Below, one piece after another: positions 19,750 to 29,440 of a stretch of 64,000 bases of DNA. Both the position numbers and the translations under genes were made by a program. The first letter of the stretch is position 1. Each line of letters opens with the position of its first letter. The DNA is from Streptococcus suis (GTDB lineage Bacteria > Bacillota > Bacilli > Lactobacillales > Streptococcaceae). The notes beneath the pieces are model-generated. The model was not told the DNA's origin. It was given only the letters and a program-made list of their open reading frames with translations, and made no database searches. The stretch is from the NCBI GenBank assembly GCA_024583055.1, contig CP102145.1, forward strand, positions 2,092,662-2,156,661, given 5' to 3'.

Positions 19750-22206
19750 ATGAAAAAAATGACCCTGCCTGTTCAAGGAATGACCTGTGCCACCTGTGCC
19801 TTGACGGTCGAGAAGGCTGTCGGGAAATTAGTAGGAGTAGAGGAAGCCAGCGTCAATTTGGCAACTGAAAAATTGAGTGTCAGTTTTGATGAAAATGTCT
19901 TGAGCCTTAGCGACATTGGTCATGCAGTTGAAAAGGCTGGTTATGGCTTGGTCCGCAACCTTATCACAGAAACCTATGCTATTGAGGGCATGACCTGTGC
20001 TTCCTGTGCCATGACGGTAGAAAAGGCGCTAGGGAAACTGGCTGGTATGGAAGAAGTGGCTGTCAATCTGGCAACGGAAAAGGCAACGATGACATATGAC
20101 AAGGATCGCTTAGATGCAGCTGCGATTCTGTCTGCCGTTGAAAAAGCTGGCTACAAGGCTGTCTTGCCACAAACAAATTCGCTTGTTACAGCTGTCGATA
20201 GTAAGGAACAACATCAATCAGATTTGTGGTCCCGTTTTATCTGGTCAACTGTGTTCACCCTGCCCTTACTCTATATCGCCATGGGGCCAATGTTACCGGG
20301 TGGTGGTTTACCTTTACCTGCCTTTCTTCATCAACCCTTGACTTTCGCCTTGGTTCAACTATTTCTGACTCTGCCGGTCATGTATATTGGGCGCGCCTTC
20401 TATCAAAAAGGTTTTAAGACACTGTTTGCAGGCCATCCCAATATGGACAGCTTGATTGCGGTGGGAACTAGCGCAGCTCTTGTGCAAGGTCTGATTATGA
20501 CGGTTCTGATTGCGAGAGGTCAGGCGGATCTGTCGCATGGGCACCCCGAGCTCTATTTCGAGTCTGCCGCTGTGATTTTAACCTTGATTACCCTTGGGAA
20601 ACACATGGAGGCCCTGTCCAAAGGATGGACGTCCGATGCCATCAAGAAATTGATGAACCTAGCTCCTAAGACAGCCAGACTAATCCGCGACGGGCAAGAA
20701 ATCACCCTTCCCTTGGAACAAGTCCAAGTTGGGGATGTCTTGCAGGTCCGTCCGGGTGAACAAATTCCAGTTGACGGAAAAGTTCTCCAAGGTCAATCGA
20801 CCGTGGATGAGTCTATGCTGACGGGAGAAAGTTTGCCGGTCAAAAAAGCAGTCGGTGATAGCGTAGTGGGTGCCACACTCAATCAGCATGGTGCCTTTCA
20901 AATGCAAGCGACCAAGGTTGGAGCAGATACGACTCTGGCACAAATTATTCGGCTGGTCGAAGAGGCACAGGGTTCTAAAGCGCCCATTGCCCAGCTGGCT
21001 GACCGTGTTTCAGCGGTTTTTGTGCCGATTGTTATGGTCCTGGCCCTCCTATCTGGGTTAGCATGGTGGACCTTGGGGCAAGAGCCTTGGATTTTCTCTC
21101 TTTCCATCACTATTTCAGTGCTGGTCATTGCCTGTCCTTGTGCTCTGGGGCTTGCGACACCGACGGCTATTATGGTCGGGACTGGTAAGGGGGCGGAAAA
21201 TGGTCTCCTCTTTAAGTCTGGTCAAGCCGTTGAGGTCCTTCAAAAGGTCAACACCATCGTTTTCGACAAGACGGGAACCATTACCCAAGGCAAACCTCAA
21301 GTGACGGACATGACAGTTTTCAGTTCTGCCACTGAGGAAGAAGTTCTCCAGCTGGCAGCAAGTGCGGAGCAATACTCTGAGCATCCGCTGGCTCAAGCCC
21401 TGCTCAAATCCGCAGAGGACGCTGGATTATCTCTTCTCCCTAGTCAGGATTTCCAAGCCCTTTCCGGTCGCGGTTTGTCGGTGAAAATAGCAGAGCAGAC
21501 TATTTTGTTGGGCAATGAAAAGCTGATGAAGGAGTCTGGGATTGCGCTTGGCTCTGCCATTGCGACAGCAGAAACCTACGCCAACCAAGCCAAGACGCCT
21601 GTCTATCTGGCAGCAGACGGACACTTGTTGGTAGTCATTGCCATTGCTGACCAAGTAAAACCATCCAGTCACGCAGCCATCCAGGCTTTGCACCAGATGG
21701 GATTGGAAGTGGTCATGCTGACAGGGGACAATGAGAAAACAGCTCAGGCCATTGCTGACCAAGTGGGAATTGACACCGTCATCAGCCAAGTCTTGCCAGA
21801 GGATAAGGCCAATCAGGTCAAGCTCCTACAAGCCCAAGGCAAGCAGGTAGCTATGGTCGGAGACGGCATCAATGATGCTCCTGCCTTGGCCCAAGCCGAG
21901 GTTGGTATTGCCATTGGTTCTGGTACTGATGTCGCTATCGAAACGGCAGACTTGGTTCTCATGCACAGTGATTTGATGGATGTTCCTAAGGCTGTTCGAC
22001 TGAGCCAATTGACCATGAAAACCATCAAGCAAAATCTCTTCTGGGCCTTTGCCTACAATGTCATCGGCATTCCGATTGCCATGGGCCTCCTCCATCTCTT
22101 CGGCGGTCCCCTTCTCAATCCAATGCTGGCTGGAGCAGCCATGGCCCTCAGCTCTGTATCTGTCCTGCTCAATGCCCTGCGTTTGCGGACCAGAAAATTG
22201 ATTTAA
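19750..22206 (+). CDS. copA: Copper-exporting P1B-type ATPase CopA
   Basis: The 818-aa pump moves Cu(I) out across the membrane with ATP. There are two N-terminal heavy-metal domains (GMTCATC at 10-16, GMTCASC near 79-85), then the actuator TGES, the membrane CPC motif ([11 protein letters not shown]), phosphorylation site DKTGT, and GDGINDAP. Two cop boxes at the promoter indicate CopY repression relieved by copper. Neither copY nor copZ is adjacent, unlike the usual copYAZ operon of streptococci, so the repressor must act from elsewhere. Confidence 0.96.
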
Positions 22207-23025: not shown

Positions 23026-23892
23026 ATGACTATACAACTAGGCTCTAGGTTAAAACAAAAAAGAAAAGAGATGAAATTATCTCAGAAAGAATTGGCAGAA
23101 GGTGTATGTAAACAAGGTCAAATTAGTAGAATTGAGAGTGGCGCTTATACTCCTGGTTCTGAGTTGCTTTTTGAATTATCAAAGAAACTAAATGTTTCAA
23201 TGAATTACTTTTTTGAAGACACTGTTTCTGAGCAGAAAGAGGAGTTAGCAGAATTCAAAACTGTTGTACGAAATTTCTTAGTCCATAGAGACTACCAAGG
23301 ACTACGATATGTTTATGAATTGGAGTCTAATAATAAACATCGTTTATCGGTAGCAAATCAATTATACTTAGAGTGGATAGGTGGATTAGTCGATTTTTAT
23401 TTTTATGATAAAAAGGAGGAAGCTATATCTAAAATGGAATATCTACTTGAACAATTGGAGAGTTCTAATTTATTTTTTTTACAAGTATCAAATACACTCC
23501 TAAATTTTTATTTTGATGTTAATGATGGAGAATTATTTGATGTACAATTTGAAAGACTGACAGAAAAAACGGATAATTTTCAACCTATCACGATTGAAGA
23601 ATTGGAATTAAAAATTAAACTTCAATATAACATTTCACGTTACCTGTGGCTAAAGAAGGATTACATCCAAGCTATAGCTAGCATCACAACGGCCATCGAA
23701 TTTTGTAGGTCACACAGGAGCTATTATTCCTTACCCGATTTATTTTGTTTACTAGGTAATGTCCATGAAGAACTTGGAAATACAGAGAGTGCGAAACAAC
23801 ATTTTCGTCAGGCATATTTTTTATATAAATTGGATGCTAACCGTCAAATGGAATTGAATCTGGAGCGATATATAGAAGAAGACAAAATCTAG
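23026..23892 (+). CDS. PlcR/TprA-like (RRNPP) transcriptional regulator
   Basis: The 288-aa protein has an N-terminal HTH_3 domain (residues 4-62, including LSQKELAEGVCKQGQISRIESG) followed by about 220 helical residues with TPR-like repeats (for example LLGNVHEELGNTESAKQHFRQAYFLY near the end). This is the architecture of RRNPP regulators that bind imported signalling peptides (PlcR, TprA, Rgg). Start ATG 23026 has a GAGG site. Its -10 TATAAT is at 23002-23007. It lies upstream of, and in the same direction as, a Phr-like peptide gene and the bacteriocin-like operon, which it probably controls. Confidence 0.85.
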   Translation: MTIQLGSRLKQKRKEMKLSQKELAEGVCKQGQISRIESGAYTPGSELLFELSKKLNVSMNYFFEDTVSEQKEELAEFKTVVRNFLVHRDYQGLRYVYELESNNKHRLSVANQLYLEWIGGLVDFYFYDKKEEAISKMEYLLEQLESSNLFFLQVSNTLLNFYFDVNDGELFDVQFERLTEKTDNFQPITIEELELKIKLQYNISRYLWLKKDYIQAIASITTAIEFCRSHRSYYSLPDLFCLLGNVHEELGNTESAKQHFRQAYFLYKLDANRQMELNLERYIEEDKI

Positions 23893-24076: not shown

Positions 24077-24105
24077 TTGACAAGATAAAAGAGTTATGAT
24101 AAACT
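24077..24105 (+). promoter_or_regulatory. Promoter of the peptide operon
   Basis: -35 TTGACA, 17-bp spacer, extended -10 TGATAAACT; start of transcription near 24112. Confidence 0.75.
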
Positions 24106-24127: not shown

Positions 24128-24256
24128 ATGAAAAAGAAAGATTATATTAAAATTGTTCAACTTTTAATTTTGCTTTTAACCTTATTGATTTTTATTAATA
24201 ATAAAGTGATTTTGAACGGAATTGATCCAGGTGCCTTAAATATTTACTTTAAATAG
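24128..24256 (+). CDS. 42-aa Phr-like pheromone candidate
   Basis: Short ORF with an AAAGGGG site 5 nt upstream. MKKKDYIK is followed by a hydrophobic stretch (IVQLLILLLTLLIFI), then a C-terminal tail NNKVILNGIDPGALNIYFK. This is the shape of exported pro-pheromones of RRNPP regulators. The NGIDPG part resembles the NGLDVG core of pneumococcal PhrA (recalled, not aligned), the ligand of TprA. It is the first gene after the regulated promoter, as a positive-feedback signal would be. It could instead be a small membrane subunit. Confidence 0.6.
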   Translation: MKKKDYIKIVQLLILLLTLLIFINNKVILNGIDPGALNIYFK

Positions 24257-24276: not shown

Positions 24277-24867
24277 ATGAAGCAAAGGTGTTATTTTATT
24301 TGGTTAATGGGAATAGTTGCCCTTTTTATAATAGGCCTTTGTGTGAAAATGTATGAGGATAAAGGTAATACTACTTCTCAAGTACAAGAAGTTGCTATTC
24401 GGGAAGTTGAGAAAGAATTTGTGCAATATAAGGAAATTTGGGAAGGAACTACATTCCCAACACTTTCGGTAAGAGATAAAGAGGAGCAGACGATTGTATT
24501 TACATCAGAATTAAAGAAACCAAAATTATATGTTATGTGGGCTAGTTGGTGTTCAGATTGTCAAAGAGAGCTACCAGTAATTGAAAAAATCTATAGTACT
24601 TATAAGGATGATATTGACTTTGTTTTAATTGATTTAGTTGGTTTTCGTGATGAAACAGTTGAAAAAGCTCTAAACTATTATAATGACAATAAGTTTACTT
24701 TTCCTATTTATTTTGACGTGGATCAAACTGTGGTTAATAGTTTAGAATTAAAAGCTATACCAACGCTTTATTTTGTAAATTCTAACAATCAAATTGAAAA
24801 AATATTCATTGAGACGGTTGATGAGGATTCTTTGAATAGAGAAATTTCTAAATTGGCTAATAGTTAG
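24277..24867 (+). CDS. Membrane-anchored thioredoxin-like (TlpA/ResA type) protein
   Basis: The 196-aa protein has an N-terminal membrane anchor (about 8-24) and an extracytoplasmic thioredoxin fold with the active site WCSDC (Cys92, Cys95) and the cis-Pro loop KAIPTLYF. TlpA-like proteins act on disulfides outside the membrane. Placed 20 nt after the Phr-like ORF and 49 nt before two Cys-containing precursor genes, it most likely forms or corrects their disulfide. Start ATG 24277 has a GAGG site. Confidence 0.85.
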   Translation: MKQRCYFIWLMGIVALFIIGLCVKMYEDKGNTTSQVQEVAIREVEKEFVQYKEIWEGTTFPTLSVRDKEEQTIVFTSELKKPKLYVMWASWCSDCQRELPVIEKIYSTYKDDIDFVLIDLVGFRDETVEKALNYYNDNKFTFPIYFDVDQTVVNSLELKAIPTLYFVNSNNQIEKIFIETVDEDSLNREISKLANS

Positions 24868-24916: not shown

Positions 24917-25015
24917 ATGAAAAAACTTACTAAATTACAAAAAATGTTTATAGTAGCTGGTCGTTTTTGCATTATCGGATTTCCAGGTGGTGGTGGATTC
25001 CTTTGTTGGGATTAA
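24917..25015 (+). CDS. Cys-peptide precursor 1 (bacteriocin- or signal-like)
   Basis: 32 codons with a GAGGAG site 9 nt upstream. A 15-residue leader, MKKLTKLQKMFIVAG, ends in AG with hydrophobic residues at -4 and -12, matching the double-glycine-type pattern cut by C39 peptidases. The predicted mature peptide is RFCIIGFPGGGGFLCWD (17 aa), with Cys at 3 and 15. The second gene downstream has a leader of the same length and the same GFLCWD end. No known bacteriocin family is recognised. Confidence 0.8.
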   Translation: MKKLTKLQKMFIVAGRFCIIGFPGGGGFLCWD

Positions 25016-25047
25016 TAAAAATTAGTTAATAAAATAAGAGGTGTGCC

Positions 25048-25143
25048 ATGAGAAAATTGAATATGGAAGAAAAAACAAAAATAACAGCTGGTCAAATTTG
25101 TCTATACTATTGGTATGGAATCGGTTTCCTTTGCTGGGATTAG
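25048..25143 (+). CDS. Cys-peptide precursor 2 (paralogue of precursor 1)
   Basis: 31 codons with an AGAGGTG site 5 nt upstream. Leader MRKLNMEEKTKITAG (15 aa, AG end, Leu at -12, Ile at -4), predicted mature peptide QICLYYWYGIGFLCWD (16 aa) with Cys at 3 and 14. The core is aromatic where precursor 1 is glycine-rich, but both begin x-x-Cys and end GFLCWD. The pair looks like a two-component or variant peptide set with one disulfide loop each. Confidence 0.8.
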   Translation: MRKLNMEEKTKITAGQICLYYWYGIGFLCWD

Positions 25144-25185
25144 TTTACATGGTTCCGTTCACCAAATAATTTAATAACTTGACTG

Positions 25186-25223
25186 GTCGATAGTTTGTCA
25201 CTTTTCTATCGACTTTTCTTTTT
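25186..25223 (+). terminator. Partial terminator between precursors and transporter genes
   Basis: GTCGATAG and CTATCGAC (8 bp) around a 12-nt loop are followed by TTTTCTTTTT. It lies between precursor 2 and the ABC genes, where partial read-through would give more precursor than transporter mRNA. Confidence 0.7.
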
Positions 25224-25234
25224 AGGAGGTTGCT

Positions 25235-26134
25235 ATGGCAAATACATTATTAAATGTTACAGCAGTATCCAAAACTTACGGAAAGCAAAAAGTTTTAGAT
25301 AATATTAGTTTTGATATTAACTGTAGAGAAATTTGTGGTCTAGTGGGAGAAAATGGTGCTGGAAAGACTACTTTAATTCGAATTCTTGCAGGATTGATTT
25401 CGAGTAATTCTGGTGAAATAAGCGGTTTAGAGAGTCAAGCTGTTTCCTGTATAGTAGAATCACCTGCTCTGTATCCCCATTTATCTGCAGGCGACAATCT
25501 TCGTGTTCAAATGATAGGTTTAGGAATCGGAGCGGATAAAGACAAAGTCAAAAATCTATTACGTATGGTTGGACTTGAGGGTGTAGACTCTAAGAAAAAA
25601 GTGAAAGATTTTTCTCTTGGAATGAAGCAACGTTTAGCAATTGCACTAGCGATTTGTGATTGGCCCAAACTACTTATATTAGATGAGCCAATAAATGGTC
25701 TGGACCCTGTAGGAATTAAGGAAATTCGTGAGATTCTTCTGCTTTTGAAAAATGAGTATCGTATGACCATTCTAGTTTCAAGTCATATCTTGTCTGAATT
25801 AGACTTGCTAGTTGATAAGTATATTATCATGAGCAAAGGAAAAGTGTTGCAAATAATCCAAAAAGATGCCTTGCAAAACCTACTCCAAACCAAACGGATC
25901 GTTAGAGTGGATAAGGAGTATGAAGCGCTTGAAGTGTTACTTTCCGAGGGAATTGAGGCGATAGTGACCGACGAAGGAATAGAGCTTTCAGAAATTGGGA
26001 AATCGACCAGCTGGATTATTGATTGCTTACGGAAAAAAGGTATTCAAATTGAGGAAATCATTAAATTTCAACCGAGTTTTGAATCCTATTATCTATCTTT
26101 GATTACAAGAGAGGAGGTTCCTCATGTTCCATAA
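25235..26134 (+). CDS. ABC transporter ATP-binding protein (BcrA/LanF-like)
   Basis: The 299-aa ATPase has Walker A GENGAGKTT (about 38-46), signature FSLGMKQRL, Walker B LLILDEP and a C-terminal extension typical of BcrA-type ATPases. These pair with ABC-2 permeases to protect producers from their own bacteriocins or to export peptides. It overlaps the permease gene by 11 nt and has an AGGAGG site. Immunity is the favoured role by context. Confidence 0.9.
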   Translation: MANTLLNVTAVSKTYGKQKVLDNISFDINCREICGLVGENGAGKTTLIRILAGLISSNSGEISGLESQAVSCIVESPALYPHLSAGDNLRVQMIGLGIGADKDKVKNLLRMVGLEGVDSKKKVKDFSLGMKQRLAIALAICDWPKLLILDEPINGLDPVGIKEIREILLLLKNEYRMTILVSSHILSELDLLVDKYIIMSKGKVLQIIQKDALQNLLQTKRIVRVDKEYEALEVLLSEGIEAIVTDEGIELSEIGKSTSWIIDCLRKKGIQIEEIIKFQPSFESYYLSLITREEVPHVP

Positions 26135-26831
26135 AGTGAAATCAGACTTTTATAGGATATGGAAAGAAAGGAGTTTAATTTTTCCAGTCTCTCTGGTGAT
26201 TCTTTTAGGAGTACTCTTCGCTTATCTGATGAGAGAAACTGATGGACAAGGAGGTATTACGATTATTTTATCTTCAGTGGCAGGGTTTATTCCTCTATTC
26301 TTCTCAAGTGCTTGTAATCTAGTCTGGGGAGAAGAATTTACCAATCGCACCATTAATCATGCAATCATAAAAAGCTCCTCTCGTTTTTCAGTTTACTTTT
26401 ATAAATTGTTTGAAACCTTGTCCCTGTGTTTTGCATATATGCTTTTACTATTTTTTACAGTAATTGTATGTAGAATTTTTTTGAATGGACAAGTAGATGT
26501 GGGTGATGCATTTGACCTGCTCATTAAGCAGTTGCCATTTCATCTCTGTTTTTCGCTACTATGTCTGTTTATTTTTCAGTATGTAGATAAGATTTATCAA
26601 GCCTACCTTATTTATACCATGATTGTCTTGATGTTTGATAATTTAGTCTCGTATGTAACAACAAGTCTCTTGGCAAATGATGTCTTTTCTCATTTCTTTC
26701 TTTTTAATCAGGTAAAGTTAATCACTAATCAAACAGAATTTTTTACTCCGTCTAGTCTGATTGCATTGATATTTAGTGTTGTCTATTTATTGAGTTCGTA
26801 CTTACTTTTTTCTAGTAGGGAGTTTAAATAG
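26124..26831 (+). CDS. ABC-2 type permease
   Basis: The 235-aa protein has six hydrophobic segments with the ABC-2 layout (a first helix after the short basic start KVKSDFYRIWKERS, then a loop GEEFTNRTINHAI that often contacts the ATPase). It is coupled to the upstream ATPase gene and so forms the membrane part of a LanFEG/BcrAB-like transporter. No sequence detail reveals the substrate. Confidence 0.85.
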   Translation: MFHKVKSDFYRIWKERSLIFPVSLVILLGVLFAYLMRETDGQGGITIILSSVAGFIPLFFSSACNLVWGEEFTNRTINHAIIKSSSRFSVYFYKLFETLSLCFAYMLLLFFTVIVCRIFLNGQVDVGDAFDLLIKQLPFHLCFSLLCLFIFQYVDKIYQAYLIYTMIVLMFDNLVSYVTTSLLANDVFSHFFLFNQVKLITNQTEFFTPSSLIALIFSVVYLLSSYLLFSSREFK

Positions 26832-26850: not shown

Positions 26851-27417
26851 ATGAAAAAAATAATTCCATTTTTCATTTTAATCATTACTTTTTTAGGAGT
26901 TGCGATTTACCTAAGTTTAGAGAGTGACAAAACAGATGTAGAGATTGCTAAGTCTTGGACTGTAACAAGCAAAGAAATTAATACGATTGAAATCTATGGT
27001 AGTGAGCAGCCTTTTGAACTTGAAATTGTGGAAACTGAGCAAGAAGTGACGACGATTAGTTTGACAGGGAAAATTTCTGAAGCAGCAATGTCAACACTTG
27101 AGAAGGCAGATATTAGTGAAAACGATGCTTACATACCATTGGGTAAAAAGGGTTTTAAGTTAGTTACCGTAGCAAGTGGGAAGAGTAGTTTAAAAGCAAA
27201 AATTGAATTGGCAAAGGGTGCTACTTTTAAAGAAGTTTATGTTGATACATGGAACGGTACTGTAGATATTACTCTGCCTAGAAGTTACGATGGAAGTTAT
27301 GATGTCAAGTTGAATAGCGGGGCGAAGTTACTAGAAGTTCCTGAAGAAGGAGCTAATAAGGCAAGTATCCTCAAAATAGATGCCTATGCCGATGTTAGCA
27401 TCAGAAAGGGTGATTAG
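26851..27417 (+). CDS. Membrane-anchored DUF4097-like protein
   Basis: The 188-aa protein has one N-terminal membrane segment (about 3-23) and an extracellular region of repeated beta-strands (VDITLPRSYDGSYDVKLNSGA) like DUF4097 adhesin-type domains, as found in LiaG. There is no lipobox. In a peptide-secretion operon it could be an immunity or sensing protein, but this is context only. AAGGAGGG site upstream; 1 nt separates it from the next gene. Confidence 0.65.
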   Translation: MKKIIPFFILIITFLGVAIYLSLESDKTDVEIAKSWTVTSKEINTIEIYGSEQPFELEIVETEQEVTTISLTGKISEAAMSTLEKADISENDAYIPLGKKGFKLVTVASGKSSLKAKIELAKGATFKEVYVDTWNGTVDITLPRSYDGSYDVKLNSGAKLLEVPEEGANKASILKIDAYADVSIRKGD

Positions 27418-27418
27418 G

Positions 27419-29440
27419 ATGATTACTCATCATAAACAGGTATCCATGTTGGATTGTGGCTTGGCTTGTATCAAGACGGTCTTGTCTTATTATGATATAT
27501 TTCCAGAGAATATTGACACAATTTTTGATGTAAAAAATGATCAAGGTATGTCCTTGTTAGATATTGAAGAGACTTTGAGTCAATTCCATATAAAATCTGA
27601 TTCATTTCAAGTGGAGCAGGTGGAAAAATTAAAACAGCTAGAATTCCCAGCTATTGCAGTTGTAAACAGAGGCGGGTTATCGCACTATATTGTTTTACTG
27701 GGCTATAATGAAGGTTCTTTCACCATGTCTGACCCCGAGCAAGTATCTTTTAGTCATATAAGTTTTAATGACTTTTTGTCGCAATTTTCAGGAATTGTTC
27801 TAATACCAACTGGAAATAAAAAGATATTGCCAAAGTTTGAAAGTATCATCAAAAATGGAGATAAGGTAGATCTATATCGTAAGTTTATTGGAACTATACC
27901 TAGAGCACAGAAAATCACTTTGTGGTGCTATGGTATTCTAAAGCTTGTCTTACCAATTATGATGTCATTGGTGCTTCAATTTATAGTCGGTAATATTTTT
28001 TCGATGCCTATTAATAATCAAATTTTCATCGTTGTAATTGTTTTATGCGGTTTATTAATTTTCAAATTGATTTCCAGCTTAGAGATAAAATTAAAAACTG
28101 AAATTGAAAACAAGCTCATGAGAGAGGTCTTATATGACTACTATGTCGATAAAATAGAGAAATTTGACACGACTAAAAATTATGATTATGTTATGGGATA
28201 TTTTTGGAATTTATTATCTTCTATTTCAGGTATTTTTCAAAAATTCTATCTGAATATTTACATTTCAATTTTATTATTTTCCCTCGGAATATTAGGGTGT
28301 CTTGATTTTAAAATTTTTTTGGTGACACTTGTATCGCTTGTTTTCCTTTTTATCTATAACAGGTATCGGTTGATAGAAGTCGAAAATAATCAACGTAACA
28401 TGGTTGCTAAAAGTTCAAATTTTACCTATTTGGTAGAAAGTTCTTTAGATGGTATTTATGATATTTTAACCTTTGATAAGGTTGATGATTTTAAGGAGGA
28501 ATTTGAACGTAGAATTGATGAGTTGTTGCAAGTAAAATTAGATTCAGCTGTGTTAAACACAGAAATTGCGACATCTGTCCAACTATTTACAGTTTTTACA
28601 ACTAGTTTTCTCTTATTATCTTCGCATTTATATTTTACAAGCTCATCCATACTCGTTTTTTCCAACATTGTATTATTGTTATTGTTACTATCAACTATTT
28701 TACAACCTCTTCTAACTAATTTGGTCTCTTACTACAAGTCAAAATATTCACTAGATTTTATTACTTTTGAAAACGCAATGATTGAGAAAGAAGTGGAAAA
28801 TCAACGTATTGGTATTGACACAATTGAAATAATTGAATTAAAACAATTGTCTATCAAATTTGATGAAAAAGTTGTTTTTCAAAATTTATCCTTTACAATG
28901 GAAAAAGGAAATATTTATTTGATAGAAGGAGATAATGGGGCGGGTAAATCGACATTAATAAAAGTGTTGCAAGGTATTTTAAGTCCCACATCAGGTGAAT
29001 TATGTTTAAATGAGAAAACGTTTGGAACTTTAAAATATACAGATATAACACAATATGTTAGTAGCTACTCAAACGAATATAGATTGTTTGCTGGAACAGT
29101 GATGCATAATATGTACTTTGATTTATTTACAAATTCTCATATAAATAAATTTGATTTCAATAGATTTTTAGGATTACATCATAATTATCAAGTAAATTCT
29201 CAAGGGAAAAATTTATCTTTGGGTCAGCAACAACGATTATTGATATTGAGAGCCATGGTCCAAAAAAATAAGCAGGTTTTTGTATTTGATGAGCCAACTA
29301 GTAATTTGGATGAGCAATCTAGAAAAGAATTTATACAGATGCTATTAGAATTAAAAGAATCAGGAAAAATAATTTGTATCATTTCACATGACAAGGATTT
29401 ACAGTCAATTGCAACAGATACAATATGTCTAAGTAAGTAG
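27419..29440 (+). CDS. C39-peptidase ABC exporter (PCAT, bacteriocin processing)
   Basis: The 673-aa protein fuses an N-terminal C39 cysteine protease (Gln7, Cys13 in DCG, His89 in LSHY, Asp105 in SDPE), a membrane domain of about six helices (180-440) and an ABC ATPase (Walker A EGDNGAGKST, signature LSLGQQQ, Walker B VFVFDEPTS). Such PCATs cut the leader after a double-glycine-type site while exporting the peptide. The ATG 27419 start is favoured because the protease motif begins at once. It is the last gene of the island operon and most likely processes precursors 1 and 2. Confidence 0.93.
   Translation: MITHHKQVSMLDCGLACIKTVLSYYDIFPENIDTIFDVKNDQGMSLLDIEETLSQFHIKSDSFQVEQVEKLKQLEFPAIAVVNRGGLSHYIVLLGYNEGSFTMSDPEQVSFSHISFNDFLSQFSGIVLIPTGNKKILPKFESIIKNGDKVDLYRKFIGTIPRAQKITLWCYGILKLVLPIMMSLVLQFIVGNIFSMPINNQIFIVVIVLCGLLIFKLISSLEIKLKTEIENKLMREVLYDYYVDKIEKFDTTKNYDYVMGYFWNLLSSISGIFQKFYLNIYISILLFSLGILGCLDFKIFLVTLVSLVFLFIYNRYRLIEVENNQRNMVAKSSNFTYLVESSLDGIYDILTFDKVDDFKEEFERRIDELLQVKLDSAVLNTEIATSVQLFTVFTTSFLLLSSHLYFTSSSILVFSNIVLLLLLLSTILQPLLTNLVSYYKSKYSLDFITFENAMIEKEVENQRIGIDTIEIIELKQLSIKFDEKVVFQNLSFTMEKGNIYLIEGDNGAGKSTLIKVLQGILSPTSGELCLNEKTFGTLKYTDITQYVSSYSNEYRLFAGTVMHNMYFDLFTNSHINKFDFNRFLGLHHNYQVNSQGKNLSLGQQQRLLILRAMVQKNKQVFVFDEPTSNLDEQSRKEFIQMLLELKESGKIICIISHDKDLQSIATDTICLSK

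Follow-up and report, generated by a model that had tools for sequence, protein, structure and literature searches.

The DNA analysed here, called the window throughout, is a stretch of 64,000 nucleotides from a Streptococcus genome of 2.19 Mb, and it carries two adjacent, very small genes, pepA and pepB, which probably encode ultra-short class II-type bacteriocins with a single disulfide, belonging to a new family and accompanied by C39 export, oxidation and an immunity formed by an ABC pair and the protein orf188. In other words, one disulfide would turn each product into a ring, and the bacteria would probably use these peptides to attack one another. The genes, their conservation, the selection acting on them, their cassette, the arrays and the remnants described below can be read directly in the genomes. 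In the order in which they lie along the window, the features concerned are:

23026..23892, forward strand: RNPP-type transcription regulator (HTH and TPR; PF01381, PF18768, PF13181)
24077..24105, forward strand: promoter-like TTGACA-17-TAAACT with TG before the second hexamer (motif scan)
24128..24256, forward strand: hydrophobic ORF of 42 aa with ribosome site GAAAGGGG and no convincing family match
24277..24867, forward strand: trx, membrane-anchored TlpA/ResA-like thioredoxin with a CSDC motif (PF00085, PF08534, PF00578)
24917..25015, forward strand: pepA, 32-aa precursor with a 15-aa leader, MKKLTKLQKMFIVAG, and then the core RFCIIGFPGGGGFLCWD
25048..25143, forward strand: pepB, 31-aa precursor with a 15-aa leader, MRKLNMEEKTKITAG, and then the core QICLYYWYGIGFLCWD
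25186..25223, forward strand: hairpin GTCGATAG/CTATCGAC in the pepB-abcA spacer, with a T-rich run behind it (folding energy -11.9 kcal/mol, z -2.58)
25235..26134, forward strand: abcA, ABC ATPase; nearest NCBIfam model TIGR03740 (lantibiotic-protection ATPase)
26124..26831, forward strand: abcB, membrane permease paired with abcA, assigned from position and co-conservation
26851..27417, forward strand: orf188, predicted to combine a single N-terminal membrane helix with a beta-rich domain of putative-adhesin type
27419..29440, forward strand: C39 peptidase-containing ABC exporter (PF03412, E 4.7e-20; PF00005), its start codon overlapping the end of orf188

The initial annotation had claimed two adjacent tiny ORFs with good ribosome sites, and these are present exactly so, to the residue, preceded by GAGGAG (pepA) and GAGGTG (pepB). 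The leaders have 15 residues each, both with AG at the cleavage side; the cores have 17 residues in pepA and 16 in pepB, with one cysteine at position 3 and the other third from the end, and the terminus GFLCWD is identical in the two, all of which agrees with that first description. The span from cysteine to cysteine, both counted, is 13 residues in pepA and 12 in pepB, and the [M+H]+ values computed for the oxidised cores are 1842.85 and 2040.90. For the oxidised 12-residue core of E. termitis, which that species encodes six or seven times, the computed value is 1376.63. In the search of Streptococcus genomes pepA matches the family profile with E 2.2e-17, and identical copies of the pepB core occur in 6 further genomes. 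A loose pattern for such peptides occurs 2 times in the window, where dinucleotide-preserving shuffles give 0.42 on average; since 6 of 100 shuffles reach at least two, this pattern is not decisive by itself; what excludes a chance origin is conservation in 14 of 284 genomes, purifying selection, and the presence of the same neighbour genes across genera. By this comparison of genomes, pepA and pepB are to be taken as real genes. A 31-bp repeat found elsewhere in the same genome turned out to be the ribosome site of an unrelated lipoprotein-like ORF.

Those 14 of the 284 Streptococcus genomes are the ones clearly matched (E <= 2.4e-9) by a five-peptide profile, and a second profile of 15 rows returned the same 14 (E <= 1.3e-9). 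Ten of them carry peptides of the window type, with cores mostly ending in CWD or CWS, and the other four (G055, which is S. sciuri, G045, G314 and G255) carry a 12-residue core, for example WVCIGWGFICWG; the relatives of trx at 94–96% identity are named Streptococcus suis. When 395 genomes of the order were searched, 11 enterococcal genomes were positive, 10 of them at E <= 6e-6 and one, G569, more weakly (E 4.3e-4), the latter being confirmed by reading its array; the carriers include Enterococcus sp. DIV0212c, E. termitis, E. quebecensis and a record labelled E. faecalis 13-SD-W-01, with E. crotali (L101) as one more. Among 398 genomes of the class there was 1 further carrier, G844, from another family of Bacilli, with six copies. 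The scan of named genomes used an alignment of CGDC-thioredoxins (A5), and thus detects only loci that have that protein and misses the window type.

Most of the 129 of 284 genomes that match at E <= 10 were set aside as too weak, the best value after the 14 being 0.002 (in G055, with stops) and the next 0.02. The same applies to the weak matches in G088, G097, G013, G076 and G051, two of which lie inside long frames and none of which has a cassette; to G925 in the class search, where a stop falls within the match and there is no cassette; and to G221, also a weak match of the class search, which was not taken as a member. G516, G481 and G530 have C39 and thioredoxin-like genes, but their peptides show different Cys patterns, and they were left outside the counts. 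Among plasmids, the cassette DNA found no match and the window exporter none at E <= 1e-30; the enterococcal exporter matched one Weissella plasmid at 27%. On a Weissella hellenica plasmid (L116:5807-5932) an unannotated ORF of 41 aa, with a 15-residue leader ending in AG and a 26-residue core with two cysteines, lies directly 5′ of a C39 exporter and a thioredoxin gene. More distant candidates, which share the leader style but differ in their Cys patterns and have C39 and thioredoxin-like genes close by, were seen at L091:8334-8438, L092:8136-8285 and L093:7986-8096 (E. larvae, E. moraviensis and G530).

The anatomy of the family was read from an alignment (A7) of 31 rows and 27 distinct cores, which omits duplicate cores, the expanded-leader copy of G014, the long-leader copies of L089, single-Cys copies, the six copies of G844, and L091–L093. 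In its 31 rows the glycine at leader position 15 and the two cysteines are invariant, and the leader has 15 residues in 30; it ends in AG in most members and in GG in some enterococcal ones. The 27 distinct cores are 12–23 residues long. With both cysteines counted, sixteen of them have a Cys-Cys span of 12 residues, four a span of 13, five a span of 8 and two a span of 19, the span of the one three-Cys core (G255) being taken from its first two cysteines. Side-chain charges go from -1 to +3, that is, from neutral to mildly cationic, and the oxidised masses computed for four cores are about 1,376–2,040 Da. Nine pairwise comparisons of peptide copies gave dN/dS of 0.06–0.39, indicating purifying selection, by the Nei-Gojobori method on 27–39 codons per gene, hence rough values, with one pair saturated at synonymous sites. 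A Shine-Dalgarno-like motif stands 5′ of 58 of the 66 copies checked, and AAGGG-type sites in seven of the other eight.

The route from precursor to product is probably as follows. The exporter would remove the 15-residue leader by a cut of its C39 domain behind AG, and would export the cores of 17 and 16 residues; outside, the anchored thioredoxin-like protein, or another in the cell, would join both cysteines into one intramolecular disulfide, giving a hydrophobic ring of 12–13 residues with a short Trp-containing tail; these ring peptides would kill neighbours, and the ABC pair together with orf188 would protect the producer. Relatives would follow the same plan, with spans of 8 or 19 residues, and in enterococci with many tandem copies. 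Both the cut after AG by the C39 transporter and the single disulfide loop had been foreseen from the letters of the window, and the comparison favours them as likely: the leader has 15 residues in 30 of the 31 rows, G15 and both cysteines are invariant there, and oxidoreductase genes recur in the cassettes. The family, its arrays, the immunity-like genes and the remnants lay outside that first description. The cleavage site, the disulfide, the killing, the immunity role and the joint action of pepA and pepB are inferred. As regards the last, the window encodes two different peptides, and G141, G114 and G223 encode two or three, which points to a two-peptide system for this branch; since single-core loci exist, this arrangement is no rule.

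Concerning the neighbouring genes, the best solved relative of trx is 5um7 (E 6.9e-30), which we take to be the structure of SdbA, and trx would probably be a disulfide oxidoreductase. The exporter peptidase keeps Gln6, the DCG motif and the His in 13 of 13 sequences, with Asp or Asn at the third catalytic position. A further full-length relative of C39-type transporters, at 23% identity and in a 724-aa frame, was observed on the second contig of the same genome (G000:C2:4354-6354, L043). The match of abcA to TIGR03740 (E 6.3e-60, 202.6 bits) is below the cut-off of 309.75, and its role would be self-immunity; abcB has no Pfam or NCBIfam match. The AlphaFold2 model of orf188 has a pLDDT of 87.5, and its best Foldseek match (E 1e-6) is to putative adhesins, with low TM-scores of 0.32–0.41 among the nine best; it would act as an immunity accessory. 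The promoter-like motif is no commoner than chance (8 sites found, 8.2 expected), and its weight therefore rests on its position and on its retention in six relatives. The 42-aa ORF could possibly encode a pheromone precursor or a small membrane protein.

Upstream of the cassette, at 19750-22206, there is a gene for a copper-type P-ATPase with two CxxC motifs, and from this neighbour it might be thought that the peptides stay reduced and bind a metal or a redox partner through their two thiols, the ABC pair moving the loaded peptide. We find this hardly credible: the P-ATPase neighbourhood is a chromosomal site shared by six relatives and is absent from the other loci mapped, oxidoreductase genes recur in the cassettes, and the residues between the cysteines vary at a constant span. 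An oxidised, ring-closed peptide remains the preferred reading.

The cassette is recognizable well beyond the window. In the enterococcal loci mapped (ten of eleven, G493 having been read for peptides only), abcA, abcB, orf188, the C39 exporter and two small CxxC thioredoxin-like proteins are present in 10 of 10. Among streptococci, the full set of the window, with trx, recurs in G141 and G114; in G055 and G045 two PedC/BrcD-like thioredoxins replace the TlpA-like one, those of G055 matching TIGR01295 below its cut-off (E 1.4e-8 and 2.5e-9); G223 has no trx in the fetched stretch and a split abcA; G314 has both exporter and abcA split, its cassette being in decay; and the G255 locus ends at the contig end. 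In G844, abcA, abcB, orf188 and C39 are present with no thioredoxin in the fetched stretch, and TlpA-like proteins are encoded elsewhere in the genomes of G844, G223 and G298.

The strongest support for weapons and protection comes from six close relatives (G301, G148, G298, G297, G296 and G014) that have the cassette at the same chromosomal place as the window. The check proposed with the initial annotation, that both ORFs should be kept in relatives, had a divided outcome: the family is conserved, but these six lack the first ORF and have the second without its ribosome site, with its core kept. All six share one junction, where the leader of the 42-aa ORF runs directly into the pepB start. 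They thus lack the 42-aa ORF, trx, pepA and the ribosome site of pepB but retain the promoter-like site; G296 additionally has no pepB start codon. This junction is probably a deletion, as trx and the two kinds of peptide stand in the same order in G141 and G114; less probably, the window acquired these genes. Of the remnants, four have no exporter gene at the locus, one has a truncated and one a whole exporter gene. The regulator, abcA, abcB and orf188 are open in all six, 95.7–98.3% identical to those of the window, with dN/dS of 0.07–0.15 for abcA, abcB and orf188, which indicates purifying selection. The remnants thus have the look of immunity-only loci, and this is the best argument for killing by the peptides and protection by the ABC pair and orf188. 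Immunity-only “cheater” bacteriocin loci have been described among the pneumococcal blp loci, according to passages of PMC4517551. The cluster counts would point the same way as the remnants (orf188, 204 sequences on 2 listed contigs; trx, 20 and 7 on 16 and 4), with little weight, as the columns disagree.

One property of the remnants does not follow from a pure cheater model, in which pepB is expected to be silent: its divergence is low. The pepB core has diverged by 0.65% and the 91-nt spacer by 1.1%, against 10.5% in the upstream DNA and 3.3% in abcA; in the four exporter-less remnants the values are 1.0% for the core, 1.1% for the spacer, 11.8% upstream and 3.5% for abcA. Window 25063-25234, which comprises the pepB core and the spacer up to abcA, is the best-conserved DNA of the stretch in a comparison with L050-L055. 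The cause may be recombination, a role as cis-acting leader, or the use of another transporter for export.

As a cis-acting leader, the remnant pepB core and hairpin would regulate abcA, for example through a stalled ribosome that opens the terminator under stress from a related peptide. The low divergence just given is in its favour, also in the four genomes without exporter, as is the hairpin with its T-run, which is attenuator-like; the same 28-nt hairpin, bar one position, appears in G223 (window 25186-25213 and L061:8688-8715), where the cassette proteins are only 39–49% identical to those of the window; the window's genome has only one copy of it. Between the peptide genes and the next gene there is a hairpin with a T-run in the streptococcal loci examined, of which only the window's was folded; the terminator scan, which takes loops of 3–8 only, found no terminator there. 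We nevertheless hold this leader to be very improbable: with the ribosome site lost, translation of pepB in the remnants is doubtful, the enterococcal arrays stand after all the cassette genes, and recombination could account for a locally low divergence.

In the enterococcal genomes the peptide genes form arrays of 2–10 tandem copies per row, located after all the cassette genes, with cores that differ widely inside one array and some that are identical: seven copies share one core in G421, five to six in G566, five in G542, and four each in G501 and G402. In G566 the normal start region of one copy is lost. Three arrays (DIV0212c, G542, G584) contain a member with the family leader and a single cysteine (L086:7629-7736, L087:8145-8255, L088:9758-9865), perhaps a partner peptide; the core of these members is KILAPASSWWLYQVLCGSWK or a near copy. 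In E. quebecensis (L089:8248-9406) two-Cys peptides of the AGCRFVWNGWGFFCRK and WKCVINIWGLGFICN types alternate, with leaders of about 41–42 aa. Downstream of the arrays, at L086:9438-13998 and in the corresponding parts of L087 and L088, there are genes that by eye resemble an agr-type signalling set: a 198–204 aa protein, long membrane proteins and a 239-aa regulator-like protein.

Some observations speak against the bacteriocin reading. Bacteriocins are usually cationic, and these cores are neutral to mildly cationic; further points against are (i) the AG of most leaders, off the double-glycine consensus; (ii) the lack of a local thioredoxin in G223 and G844, the single-Cys members of the arrays and the three-Cys core of G255; and (iii) the split abcA of G223, the split exporter and abcA of G314, and the low pepB divergence in the remnants. 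RNPP regulators bind linear peptides taken up through permeases. If the peptides were no weapons, they could be pheromones closed by a disulfide, which leave the cell through the C39 transporter and are detected by a receptor whose gene lies elsewhere: C39 exporters also transport pheromones, an RNPP regulator adjoins the peptide genes, neutral cores would suit a signal, and multi-copy arrays could raise its dose. In addition, the pneumococcal rtg locus, as described in passages of PMC7595303, combines a regulator of the Rgg type with a C39 exporter and with several double-glycine peptides whose function is unclear. We judge such a signal unlikely, because the window cassette has no histidine kinase, the known ligands of RNPP regulators are linear, the cores of one array differ widely, and a signal would not explain why six relatives without the machinery still keep abcA, abcB and orf188 under selection.

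A bolder version of the bacteriocin reading, to which we lend only tentative credence, sees here an undescribed and widespread class of gene-encoded disulfide macrocycles, with spans of 8, 12, 13 and 19 residues and no modification enzyme, diversified as arrays of up to ten genes behind a fixed set of exporter, oxidoreductase and immunity; the neutral rings would hit a specific target instead of forming pores, and the remnants would keep the immunity together with the core and hairpin as a sensor leader.

If the bacteriocin reading is true, streptococci and enterococci would make a whole set of natural ring peptides, some only 12 residues long, that ORF finders and family models have missed. 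Such rings would be accessible by ordinary solid-phase synthesis and air oxidation, making activity, target and immunity directly testable; the arrays would offer a natural series of variants on a constant scaffold, and the remnants a natural experiment in which immunity was kept after production was lost.

With regard to class membership, the precursors are small, with leaders of the GG/GA/AG type; a C39 exporter with its catalytic residues is encoded in the cluster, the five exporter-less remnants excepted; and there is no modification enzyme in the window cassette, which was scanned, nor in the other loci, as judged from ORF maps and comparison of the cassette proteins. The absence of lanthionine, radical-SAM and lasso genes noticed at the outset holds among the Pfam and NCBIfam matches listed for the nine window cassette ORFs, where no lanthipeptide, sactipeptide or lasso modification enzyme appears. 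A candidate for dedicated immunity is the set of abcA, abcB and orf188, which the remnants keep under selection. As also anticipated, pepA and pepB lie outside known families, neither being matched by a Pfam or NCBIfam model; of eight peptides, NCBIfam matched none and Pfam none above cut-off, a 56-aa peptide having two unrelated sub-threshold Pfam matches. This 56-aa long-leader form has only two database relatives, both called hypothetical protein. The YGNGV-type N-terminal motif that the abstract of PMC3546714 gives for the pediocin-like class IIa is absent from the 27 distinct cores. The leader type and the conserved Cys pair also set the peptides apart from RNPP pheromones of the SHP/Phr type, which have hydrophobic precursors handled by Sec or PptAB and a linear product, and for which the 42-aa ORF (24128-24256) would be a better candidate than pepA or pepB. 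In the titles and abstract beginnings of the open-access PubMed Central literature, with subscription papers outside this scope, no description of such peptides was found, and the family is apparently undescribed so far; the supplement of a bacteriocin survey that, in the part seen, combined short-ORF calling, models of known domains and BAGEL4 (PMC10134562) could hold them. In summary, the system would work like class II bacteriocins, with putative activity, and departs from membership only in the match to known families.

Several known systems share parts of this plan. Like the window, the pneumococcal rtg locus places several double-glycine peptides together with a C39 exporter and a regulator of the RRNPP family, and the passages of PMC7595303 describing it mention neither a disulfide oxidoreductase nor an immunity-type ABC. 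SdbA of Streptococcus gordonii forms disulfides in secreted proteins and, in passages of PMC5112981, has an indirect effect on bacteriocins via CiaRH. It is a general enzyme, in contrast to the window trx, which is encoded within the cassette. The accessory family PedC/BrcD has relatives in the G055 locus. To our knowledge bactofencin A does not occur in tandem arrays. According to passages of PMC5465099, bactofencin A and pediocin PA-1 share a cluster plan of structural and immunity genes, an ABC transporter and a thioredoxin-like accessory protein, helpful in E. coli without being essential; bactofencin A has one intramolecular disulfide, as proposed here, at 2,782 Da against about 1,376–2,040 Da for the four oxidised cores computed here, and with a different sequence.

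Together with bactofencin A and pediocin PA-1, the closest precedent is gallocin A (GllA1/GllA2), a class IIb bacteriocin of Streptococcus gallolyticus, in which, as stated in passages of PMC10100652, the disulfide is essential and the thioredoxin-like gene blpT is needed; like the window system, it has double-glycine leaders, a C39-type exporter, an intramolecular disulfide and a thioredoxin-domain gene. The gallocin peptides form helical hairpins (PMC10100652), and for this reason cannot be 12–23 residues long like the cores described here. Finally, gallocin immunity depends on one small protein, whereas in the present family that role would fall to an ABC pair and an orf188-like protein.
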